From positions 1 through 62,467 of the forward strand of contig WGER01000072.1 of assembly GCA_015492645.1 (NCBI GenBank): a DNA stretch of 62,467 nucleotides, read 5' to 3'. The notes below the pieces were generated by a model. The model did no database searches, had not been told where the DNA came from, and was given only the letters and a program-made list of their open reading frames with translations. The position numbers were made by a program, and so were the translations under genes. Below, piece by piece: positions 5,866 through 35,165 of the stretch; position 1 is the stretch's first letter; each line of letters opens with the position of its first letter. This stretch comes from Nitrospirota bacterium. GTDB taxonomy: Bacteria; Nitrospirota; Thermodesulfovibrionia; Thermodesulfovibrionales; JdFR-85.

Positions 5866-5990
5866 CTAAATTGGCGTTAGAATTTCAATCAAAACTCTGG
5901 AAGAGGGGATTGTAATAAATTCATCACATAAATCTGGTTTTGAGGCAATACAGGTGCCCTGATTTTACAGACAAAAATTTGATTTAACAA
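5866..5990. repeat. Dispersed intergenic repeat, copy B (degenerate)
   Basis: AGAATTTCAATCAAAACT followed by TGGAAG matches 27090-27115. CATAAATCTGGTTTTGAGGC and CCCTGATTTTACAG resemble 27307-27360. It fills most of the gap between the corrinoid operon and the heme sensor gene. Confidence 0.6.
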
Positions 5991-18046: not shown

Positions 18047-18085
18047 TATAATGGGGTATGGGGGTGACCCCCATACCCCATTATA
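18047..18085. terminator. Perfect 18-bp hairpin between transporter and next gene
   Basis: Two 18-base arms (18047-18064 and 18068-18085) pair perfectly around TGA, with five terminal G-C pairs. It begins 8 bases after the transporter stop and ends beside the AAGGAGG of the following gene. No T tract follows, so it looks more like an RNA stability or processing element than a classic terminator. Confidence 0.6.
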
Positions 18086-18289: not shown

Positions 18290-18318
18290 CTCAGGAGAGG
18301 GGGTAACCCTCTCCTGAG
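18290..18318. terminator. 12-bp intercistronic hairpin
   Basis: CTCAGGAGAGGG (18290-18301) and CCCTCTCCTGAG (18307-18318) pair perfectly around 5 bases. It lies 3 bases after the stop of the 61-residue gene and 9 bases before the next ATG, the same arrangement as the hairpin at 18047. The T tract of a true terminator is missing. Confidence 0.55.
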
Positions 18319-24874: not shown

Positions 24875-26851
24875 ATGGCCGAGAAGGGATTTGATGTACT
24901 GCTGGAGGAGAAGAGATCCTTTCCTCCTCCACCCGAGTTTTCGGAAAGGGCTCATATCAAGAGTATGAAGGAGTATGAACAACTCTACAGAAAGAGTATT
25001 GAAGACCCTGAGGGTTTCTGGGCCGATATGGCAAGGCAACACCTGCACTGGTACAGGGAGTGGGACAGGGTCCTTGAGTATGACTTTGAGAAACCCTATG
25101 TGAAGTGGTTTATCGGTGGCAAATTGAATGCCTCCTACAACTGTATCGACAGGCATCTGAATAATGCAAGGAAGAATAAGGCTGCCATCATCTGGGAGTC
25201 TGATGATGGTCATTACAAGACCTATACCTACCAGCAACTATTTACAGAGGTCAACCGTTTTGCCAATGTCCTGAAGAAGCATGGTATCAAGAAGGGAGAC
25301 AGGGTTACCATCTATCTGCCAATGATCCCCGAACTGCCGATTGCGATGCTTGCCTGTGCGAGGATCGGGGCGATCCATAGTGTTGTATTTGGTGGTTTTT
25401 CTGCAAAGTCCCTGAGGGAGAGGATAAACGACTGTGAGGCGAAGATGCTCATAACCGCTGATGAGGGTATTAGAGGCGGAAGAAAGGTACCCCTCAAGGC
25501 AAACTCCGATGAGGCCCTCCTTGAGTGTCCAACAATAGAGAAGGTGATAGTGGTGAAAAGGTCTGCCGGAGATGTAGATATTGAGCCGGGCAGAGATTTA
25601 TGGTGGCATGAAGAGATATGCAGAGAAGACATTGAGAACTACTGTGAGCCAGAGGTTATGGACGCAGAAGACCCCCTCTTTATTCTCTACACGTCAGGGT
25701 CTACCGGAAAACCCAAAGGCGTACTCCATACCACAGGGGGATACCTCCTCTATACCACCCTCACCTTCAAATGGATATTTGACTATCATGAGGAAGATAT
25801 ACACTTCTGTACTGCCGATATCGGCTGGATCACAGGTCACAGTTATATAGTCTATGGACCGCTGTGTGCTGGTGCCACCTCTCTGATGTTTGAGGGTATT
25901 CCGACCTATCCAAACCCGGGCAGGTATTGGGAGATCGTTGACAAACACAGGGCAAGCATACTCTATACTGCACCCACGGTTATAAGGGCCCTTATGAGAG
26001 AGGGTGAAGAATGGGTCTACAGGTATGACCTCTCCTCCCTGAGGTTGCTCGGCACTGTGGGTGAACCCATAAATCCAGAGGCCTGGATGTGGTATCACAC
26101 ACATGTTGGTAAAGGCAAACTCCCCATCGTTGATACCTGGTGGCAGACAGAGACAGGTGGAATCCTGATTACTCCACTACCGGGGGCAATGACCCTTAAA
26201 CCGGGCTCTGCCAACAGACCCTTCCCTGGGGTTGTTCCGAGAGTCCTTAAAGAGGATGGCACCCCTGCAGATGTGAATGAGGGAGGTTATCTCGTAATTG
26301 AAAAGCCCTGGCCCGGCATGTTGAGGGGAACCTACGGAGACCCTGAAAACAAGAGGGTAAAGGAGATATACTTCAGCAGGTTCCCTGGTAGATACTTTAC
26401 AGGAGACGGTGCAAGGGTGGATGAGGACGGTGACTTCTGGTTAATGGGAAGGATAGACGATGTCCTGAATGTATCCGGTCACAGGATTGGCACTGCTGAA
26501 CTGGAATCTGCCCTGGTGAGTCATGAGGCAGTTGCTGAAGCAGCCGTGGTGGGTTATCCCCATGAGGTGAAAGGTGAGGGGATATATGCCTATGTGGTAT
26601 TAAAGGACGGACATCATCCCTCCGAGGAATTGAGGAACATCCTTGCTGGCCATGTCCGCTCAGTCATTGGGCCTATAGCAAAGCCTGACAAGATCCAGTT
26701 TGCACCAGGACTTCCCAAGACACGCAGTGGAAAGATAATGCGGAGGATCCTCAGAAAGATAGCAAGGGGCGACATTGAGGACCTTGGGGATACCACAACC
26801 CTTGCAGACCCCTCTGTGGTGGATGTCCTTGTGAAGGAAAGGATAAATTAA
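24875..26851 (+). CDS. acs: Acetyl-CoA synthetase (AMP-forming)
   Basis: 658 residues, typical of Acs. Motifs: [20 protein letters not shown] (ATP/Pi loop), [41 protein letters not shown] and the C-terminal catalytic Lys in SGKIMRR, usually controlled by acetylation. It activates acetate to acetyl-CoA in the cytoplasm. Strong AAAGGAGGTAGTC site. It stands alone, followed by a hairpin and a repeat region. Confidence 0.98.
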
Positions 26852-26854
26852 CAT

Positions 26855-26877
26855 GGAGAGGGGCCCATCCCCTCTCC
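26855..26877 (+). terminator. Rho-independent-like terminator after acs
   Basis: GGAGAGGGG and CCCCTCTCC pair perfectly around CCCAT, 3 bases after the acs stop; a pyrimidine-rich tail follows. Confidence 0.65.
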
Positions 26878-26972
26878 TGTTCCTCTCCTCTGTCTTCTTC
26901 ACAAATCAATTTTAATCGTCCCAGATTATTAACCAGGCAACTAAAACAAAAAAACAACCCTAACAGGTGAAA

Positions 26973-27410
26973 CACCCTCTTCCTTTGAAGGAGAGGGATA
27001 TTTTCATCTATGATTTTGTGGGCCCTCCCTGCCGTAAAACCACCCATTTCTATTGTCAATTTTAGGGATACTCTCCTAAATTGCCGATAGAATTTCAATC
27101 AAAACTTTGGAAGGTGGCAGGGGGTCCCCACAAGATCAGAAGATCTTGTGGGGCAGAGGAACTCAGCCCAGGAAAATCCACGATTTTCCTGGGAACCCCT
27201 GCCGAAAAATCAGGATTTCAGCGACACCAAAAGTGCCGTGGCAAATCTAATGGCGTTTCACCCATTAGGTGAAAAAGGGTTGGAGTCTTTTGATTAAAAA
27301 TTGTCGCATAAATCCTGTTTTGAGGCTGGGATCCCTGAAAAATCAGAGATTTTTCAGGGCCGAGTTTCTGCCGCAAAAACAACTATTTCTATCGGCAAAT
27401 CCGGGGATGC
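26973..27410. repeat. Intergenic repeat cluster, copy C, with three 12-bp hairpins
   Basis: The 600 bases between acs and the TauE/SafE gene hold no gene. They contain a GGAGAGGG-type palindrome (26973-26999); a block shared with copy B (27083-27116); hairpins H1 (27126-27153), H2 (27167-27193) and H3 (27333-27359), each with 12-bp perfect arms; a block shared with copy D (27207-27290), which includes TTTCACC/GGTGAAA; and a block shared inversely with copy A (27300-27400). Confidence 0.75.
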
Positions 27411-27455
27411 TACGCATAACTGACCCGTACCAAACACTTTATGATATATTAATAA

Positions 27456-28376
27456 ATGGAATTTTTAAAAATAACCTTTCCTGTTGCTGGTATTGAGACA
27501 TACTGGTTTCTTCCTCCTCTGGTTGCGTTTCTTATATCCCTTTTTACATCCATGGCTGGCGTGTCAGGTGCCTTTCTCCTGATGCCCTTTCAGATGAGTG
27601 TACTGGGATTTACCTCACCATCGGTGAGTTCAACCAATTTTCTCTACAACCTGGTAGGTATACCAGGGGGTGTGTATAGATACATAAAAGAGAGGAGAAT
27701 GCTCTGGCCTCTCACGATCTGCATAATTGTCGGGACATTGCCTGGTGTCTTTTTTGGATATATCCTCAGGATCACCTATCTGCCTGACCCACGCAGGTTC
27801 AAGTTTTTTGTTGGGGTAGTTCTGCTCTATATCGGGTACAGGTTATACAGGGACATCAGAGAAAGACCTCTACAGACAGGAGGCGACAGCCCTCTGAGAG
27901 GGCGTAAATACCCGGATACAGTCTTTCGTATCTCCGAGGTGCGATACTCTCTAAGAAGGGTGAGTTTCCGATTCCTTGACAGAGATGCCTCCTTCAGTAC
28001 ACCTGTTGTGTTTGTACTGTCTCTGGTTGTAGGAGTGGTGGGAGGTATATATGGAATAGGTGGTGGTGCTATTATTGCCCCCTTTCTGGTCAGCATCATT
28101 AATCTACCCGTGTATGTGGTCTCAGGGGCCACCCTTATGGGCACCTTTATCACCTCTATCTCTGGTCTCCTCTTCTATACCCTCGTTCCACTGAAAGGTG
28201 GGATCACTGCCCCTCCCGACTGGCTCTTGGGGATACTCTTTGGTTCAGGGGGACTTGCAGGGATGTACACAGGTGCAAGACTCCAGAGGTACATGCCAGA
28301 AAGAACCATCAAAGTGATACTCACCATTGTGATACTCTTGGTGGCAGGCAAGTATATTCTGCAGTTCTTCAGATAG
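27456..28376 (+). CDS. TauE/SafE family anion permease
   Basis: 306 residues with about eight membrane helices and the duplicated glycine-rich family motif: MAGVSGAFLLMPF near 27-40 and VVGGIYGIGGGAIIAPFLVS in the second half. The family exports or imports sulfite, sulfoacetate and related anions; the substrate here is unknown. A charged loop (about 125-180) separates the halves. No Shine-Dalgarno precedes the ATG, while a TATATT lies 5 bases before it, so the mRNA may be leaderless or nearly so. Confidence 0.88.
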   Translation: MEFLKITFPVAGIETYWFLPPLVAFLISLFTSMAGVSGAFLLMPFQMSVLGFTSPSVSSTNFLYNLVGIPGGVYRYIKERRMLWPLTICIIVGTLPGVFFGYILRITYLPDPRRFKFFVGVVLLYIGYRLYRDIRERPLQTGGDSPLRGRKYPDTVFRISEVRYSLRRVSFRFLDRDASFSTPVVFVLSLVVGVVGGIYGIGGGAIIAPFLVSIINLPVYVVSGATLMGTFITSISGLLFYTLVPLKGGITAPPDWLLGILFGSGGLAGMYTGARLQRYMPERTIKVILTIVILLVAGKYILQFFR

Positions 28377-34987: not shown

Positions 34988-35165
34988 GTCTTCAAAAAAT
35001 CAGGATTTCAGCGACACCACAACTGCCGTGGCAAATGAAACCACCCATTGGGTAAAAAGGGGTTGAAGGAGGCGGGCAGTACTGCCTATTGCCCATTGTC
35101 TTCTCTGTCCGAACCATCGTTGCCCTCCTTGCAAAGACATGTTGCATAAATCCTGCGTACAGGTT
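34988..35165. repeat. Dispersed intergenic repeat, copy D
   Basis: AAAATCAGGATTTCAGCGAC then CACC matches 27206-27228; TGCCGTGGCAAAT and CACCCATT follow as in copy C. The palindromic module 35068-35128 matches copy A in reverse orientation. GTTGCATAAATCCTG near the end matches copies A and C. It occupies about half of the 366-base gap before zwf; the rest holds nothing certain beyond a lone TTGACA at 35207. Confidence 0.7.

Follow-up and report, generated by a model that had tools for sequence, protein, structure and literature searches.

The intergenic region considered here raises the question of why three perfect hairpins of one design, with different base pairs in the middle of their stems, should lie within 234 bp of one another between two genes, and whether they are the work of a structured RNA or of a mobile palindromic element, two of the three options proposed from the sequence alone, the third being a protein-binding array. 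The window (the whole stretch of DNA that was analysed, 62,467 nucleotides) is contig C72 of a 2.43-Mb genome in 91 contigs (G000).

Three hairpins of one design

The sequence-only reading placed the hairpins at 27126-27153 (H1), 27167-27193 (H2) and 27333-27359 (H3), each with perfect 12-bp arms, and all three are found at exactly these positions, with a loop of 4 nt in H1 and of 3 nt in H2 and H3. When the whole 62-kb window was simulated with a Markov-1 model, hairpins with perfect arms of at least 12 bp appeared in one of 20 simulations, against three real ones within 234 bp, a density far beyond chance. The stem design it described, CCC(C)-ATC paired with GAT-GGG(G) around altered middle base pairs, is real, as are the flanks: GGCAGGGG lies to the left of H1, CCCCTGCC to the right of H2 and CAGAGGAACTCAG between H1 and H2. 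These two hairpins form a head-to-head pair that holds CAGAGGAACTCAG in common, the two ends of CAGAGGAACTCAG being the two feet. The complete unit spans 36-38 bp and consists of a 12-bp stem (CCCNNNAAAATC / GATTTTNNNGGG) around 3-4 nt, bordered by asymmetric feet (5', CTCNG; 3', ACCCC). A covariance model gives the units of H1-H3 scores of 50.5-58 bits and, scanned across the 62-kb window, returns no fourth good copy.

Elsewhere in the window, a perfect hairpin with 18-bp arms and a 3-nt loop (TATAATGGGGTATGGGGG TGA CCCCCATACCCCATTATA) at 18047-18085 lies directly after a 531-aa membrane-protein ORF (end 18039) and directly before a small ORF, and one more 12-bp hairpin occupies 18290-18318.

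The host element

The hairpins sit within a larger element, whose surroundings and parts are as follows.

26852-27455, no strand: intergenic region holding the elements, from the ORF list
24875-26851, plus strand: upstream acetyl-CoA synthetase-like ORF, named from reading its translation
27456-28376, plus strand: downstream membrane-protein ORF, named from reading its translation
27074-27405, plus strand: MITE-like host element, 332 bp, with TIRs AAATTGCCGATAGA... and ...TATCGGCAAATC, 4 outer bases each
27201-27326, plus strand: core module, partly palindromic (CAGGATTTCAGCGACA ... TGTCGCATAAATCCTG), found in G001 and G003 without hairpin units
27029-27073, plus strand: what is left of the right arm of a neighbouring second element from this MITE family (CTGCCGTAAAACCACCCATTTCTATTGTCAATTTTAGGG, matching the right arm of other copies)

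The 431 bases around H1-H3 match about 40 other places in G000, several of them at contig ends, as is expected because repeats break assemblies. Terminal sequences common to the copies are CC(C)NAAATTGCCGTTAGA... and its inverse, and the TIR is found at 57 sites in the genome with at most 3 mismatches, against 0 for a reversed control. Exact 6-bp target duplications lie at a fixed offset, 4 bases outside the termini, in several copies, among them L009 (ACCGGA), L043 (TGAATT) and L057 (ATCATA); the signal at this offset, the best of many tried, has a z of about 4.7 relative to shuffled pairings. The duplication flanking the window copy itself is degraded to a match of 4 bases in 6 (ATACTC / ATGCTA). 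With its TIRs, target duplications, dispersed copies and no ORF, the host element is MITE-like. No TIR pair at transposon spacing, as for an autonomous partner, stood out among the TIR sites listed, and the parent transposase of the MITE was not found in the transposase search, which addressed the Y1 family.

The element is modular. The smallest copy (L053, about 89 bp) consists of the arms only and lacks the core module, while L051, L071 and L043 hold different interior modules between the same terminal repeats, one of which contains an additional long palindrome of AAGTCGGAAGTCAGA type. The window also has other partial copies of this MITE family, at 1357-1409, 5866-5884 and 34995-35068.

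Units as separate blocks within the element

Each hairpin belongs to a block that is present in some copies of the element and missing from others.

27119-27156, minus strand: hairpin unit 1 (holds H1), 38-bp insert at CT|GCC; covariance-model match 27119-27158 minus, 50.5 bits
27164-27200, plus strand: hairpin unit 2 (holds H2), 37-bp insert at CT|GCC; covariance-model match 27162-27200 plus, 58 bits
27327-27362, minus strand: hairpin unit 3 (holds H3), 36-bp insert at CT|GCC; covariance-model match 27326-27364 minus, 54.4 bits

The block of unit 1 is missing from L015, where the flanks are joined, the unit 2 junction is empty in L010, L014 and L021, and the copies on C77 and C41 lack exactly query positions 328-363, corresponding to 27327-27362 (unit 3). 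The near-identical copies L014 and L007 differ by a 37-bp and a 36-bp block, one per arm and each at CT|GCC, and the CT|GCC junction is likewise empty in L002, L003, L009, L010, L021, L028, L031 and L036. Empty arms mostly read ...CT|GCC...; where an arm is filled, its block starts with C(A/T/G)G-CCC and ends near CCCT. Between two close strains no orthologous empty site was obtained, which counts against a mobile unit; the clean empty sites are those of other MITE copies, and the coding cases described below are compared with distant homologues. In a DNA search of G001, a sister species of the same genus, the sole match was the gene downstream of the hairpin locus, whose upstream neighbour in G001 is a different one, so that no orthologous empty site was returned.

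Many copies have the same stem type at the same site of the MITE, with the AGG stem at site A and the TGA stem at site B, suggesting that most copies of the window type stem from a few insertions followed by spread of the MITE. The MITE would thereby have carried the units along during its own spread.

Units in frame inside genes

Single units without MITE arms occur inside genes and in other repeat families of other genomes. In Nitrospiraceae UBA665 (G219) most of the copies found sit in open, conserved genes. The UBA665 MutS contains exactly 12 extra residues (36 bp) compared with solved MutS proteins, placed between RIFT and the conserved GA(S/A)D, and the DNA of this unit reads ACCT|CTGCCCC...GGGGGCCCCT|GC, with the CT|GC junction that is seen in the MITE. 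Other in-frame hosts are RecJ, LigA, an AmiC-type amidase, an M16 peptidase, a CCA-adding/poly(A) polymerase-like gene and three MoeA-like genes; the MoeA-like gene of G000 (C27) holds two units, both within linkers whose length varies. Host ORFs read the units in different frames, and both unit orientations occur. Most weight falls on the internal cases (MutS, RecJ, LigA, M16), since the start codon is in doubt for some coding copies that lie close to the N-terminus.

The MoeA-like gene of G000 also reads CTGACTTCTGACTCC-like repeats in frame, and tandem repeats of this kind flank units at L035, L138, L139 and L150, in several genomes.

The commonest UBA665 subtype has zero stop codons in all six frames, and of 57 units 28% are free of stops in all six; palindrome-preserving shuffles give 12.6%, with a maximum of 22.8%. 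We considered six-frame openness as a designed feature and rejected it, the effect being mild and strongest in the UBA665 subtype.

Optional blocks, occurrence in both orientations, in-frame sites in unrelated genes and differences between sister species together describe the behaviour of mobile DNA, and support the mobile palindromic element that had been offered as one option from the sequence. H1-H3 are very probably mobile palindromic units of the REP kind nested in a MITE, a degree of confidence that applies to what the units are and excludes the route by which they move.

A possible enzyme and a possible route for the units

A narrower form of this reading, which does not exclude it, would make the units classical REPs moved by a RAYT (Y1) of the same genomes; size, copy number, asymmetric feet and CT junction all resemble those of REPs and one Y1 protein is present in G000, but the tags and the enzyme itself make this unlikely. 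None of 114 copies has GTAG on either side within 8 nt; CGTC occurs within 8 nt in 2 of 114, both on the 3' side, which does not make the units REPs of the CGTC type. The scan for a dedicated REP-like transposase that the sequence-only reading had suggested found none. The sole Y1 transposase-like protein of G000 (L039 916-1863, on C30; 315 aa) has KGYH in place of the expected HxH motif and a Bac_DnaA_C domain, which assigns it to a Y1 subclass reported without REPs nearby (PMC6006769). No unit-type hairpin lies near its gene, nor beside Y1 genes at any of the 30 loci checked in G000 and its relatives, and no Y1 match at E ≤ 0.001 was obtained in the carriers G002, G004, G009 and G219, all of them draft assemblies.

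We keep the broader reading, mobile units of the REP kind, and consider by analogy how they might move. TnpA-REP enzymes cut at a CT beside the hairpin, guided by the foot tetranucleotide (PMC8266576). The CT junction, the asymmetric feet and the size of the Nitrospirota units fit a single-strand route, and single-strand insertion after CT is our best guess at the likeliest one. We tentatively propose that the unit moves as a single-stranded DNA hairpin that is cut and joined 3' of CT, much as REP transposases act in vitro, and that the enzyme would be supplied in trans or would since have been lost; alternatively, hairpin-driven copying might dispense with a dedicated enzyme. Besides the enzyme that was looked for and not found, the mobile reading has against it that CT stands at -5,-4 in no more than half (57) of the 114 non-redundant copies and that the block length is variable (36-38 bp). 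It is conceivable, with the balance of our judgement somewhat on the other side, that a family of 36-bp, 12-codon palindromes spreads without a dedicated tyrosine transposase and enters housekeeping and DNA-repair genes of Nitrospirota in frame, adding 12-residue peptides to working proteins.

Insertion or deletion

The filled and empty arms could also be read in the opposite direction, with the units as parts of the MITE that were never mobile alone and the variants without them as products of slippage deletion across the palindrome. Palindromes are prone to precise deletion, and the recurrence of the same stem type at the same MITE site agrees with most copies being MITE amplification of a few events. 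Against this stand the lone units that lack MITE arms in genes and other repeat families of other genomes, the MutS unit, which the solved homologues lack, and the cores of G001 and G003, which are free of units; together they render deletion quite improbable as the general explanation.

Spread and covariation of the stems

The genome-wide covariance-model search proposed with the original observation recovered further copies with paired changes in G000. Its 113 matches there (2.43 Mb) include both strands of some hairpins and correspond to 50 or more separate places. In two species of the same family the number is about 100 (G006, 99; G011, 101) and G013 has 36, while 0 were found in the same-genus sister species G001 and 0 in several family members. 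A pattern that left the three middle pairs free matched 35 stretches of public genomes, mostly Nitrospirota, and in many of these stretches the free triplets are fully complementary.

Across 27 distinct units, 97.2% of cells are paired, and both-sided changes, which are concentrated at the three middle pairs, number 34, where shuffles give 8.9. Because pairing was among the criteria by which the units were collected, the percentage paired is inflated, and so, though less, is the number of both-sided changes. A G011 subtype shows a both-sided change beside the loop as well (AAGTC/GACTT). Hairpins of similar design (CCC...AAAATC NNN GATTTT...GGG) were also seen at several loci each in Oscillospiraceae and Sungiibacteriota (L075, L082, L083, L088; L076, L091, L097).

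It had been argued that compensatory change among the copies implies selection on pairing. Conservation of the pairing stands, but paired changes need not mean selection on RNA: pairs would also be maintained by re-copying one arm from the other, or by recognition of a DNA hairpin during mobility. For mobile units of the REP kind, pairing may have been kept because the folded DNA hairpin is the substrate of the mobility machinery, or of hairpin-templated repair, rather than through an RNA function. That the hairpins and the whole 332-bp element are a structured RNA (cis-regulator or sRNA) selected for pairing is highly improbable, for although the element folds to -144.8 kcal/mol, where shuffles reach -90.1 (z = -10.6), has covarying stems and sits between two co-directional genes, nested palindromes in general fold well and covary, so that this z is no evidence for RNA, while the blocks are optional insertions, lie in both orientations and are found inside unrelated ORFs too, an Rfam search gave only sub-threshold chance matches and the sister species G001 has no units.

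Comparison with known systems

Palindromes inserted in frame have been described chiefly in Rickettsia and in scattered species that carry REPs. The closest known kind is that of the REPs whose feet are GTAG or CGTC; the Nitrospirota family is distinct from these and nested in a MITE. The GTAG- and CGTC-tagged REP families have copies reported inside replication and repair genes (Di Nocera 2013, PMC3733652), to which the intragenic copies in MutS, RecJ and LigA correspond here. As in REPs, the units are palindromes within the 20-40-bp range, dispersed at about 100 copies per genome, with asymmetric unpaired feet and with head-to-head pairs, represented in the window by H1/H2. They differ in their feet (CTCNG/ACCCC, where most REPs have GTAG/CGTC), in that no associated Y1 gene was found, and in the nesting of the window copies in a TIR-type MITE.

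Rickettsia palindromic elements (RPE) lie in frame in many unrelated protein genes and leave the host ORF open (PMC10969869, PMC3733652), as do the units described here; published descriptions give RPE a length of about 150 bp and place them in Rickettsia, whereas the Nitrospirota units are 36-38 bp (12 codons when 36). The 332-bp element shares with MITEs such as RUP, NEMIS, ERIC and Nezha its TIRs, target duplications, absence of coding capacity and many dispersed copies, and differs from them in its modular interior, where as many as three palindromic units accompany a core.

A literature search with limited terms found no paper on such repeats in Nitrospirae. The units add a separate family from a different phylum, in which filled and empty sites are cleanly defined, MutS, RecJ and LigA carry copies in frame and no transposase is apparent. 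The units also explain contig breaks and odd 12-residue protein inserts in the genomes that carry them. The Nitrospirota family offers a tractable case in which to ask how REP-like DNA might move without a RAYT and whether proteins are changed by such insertions.
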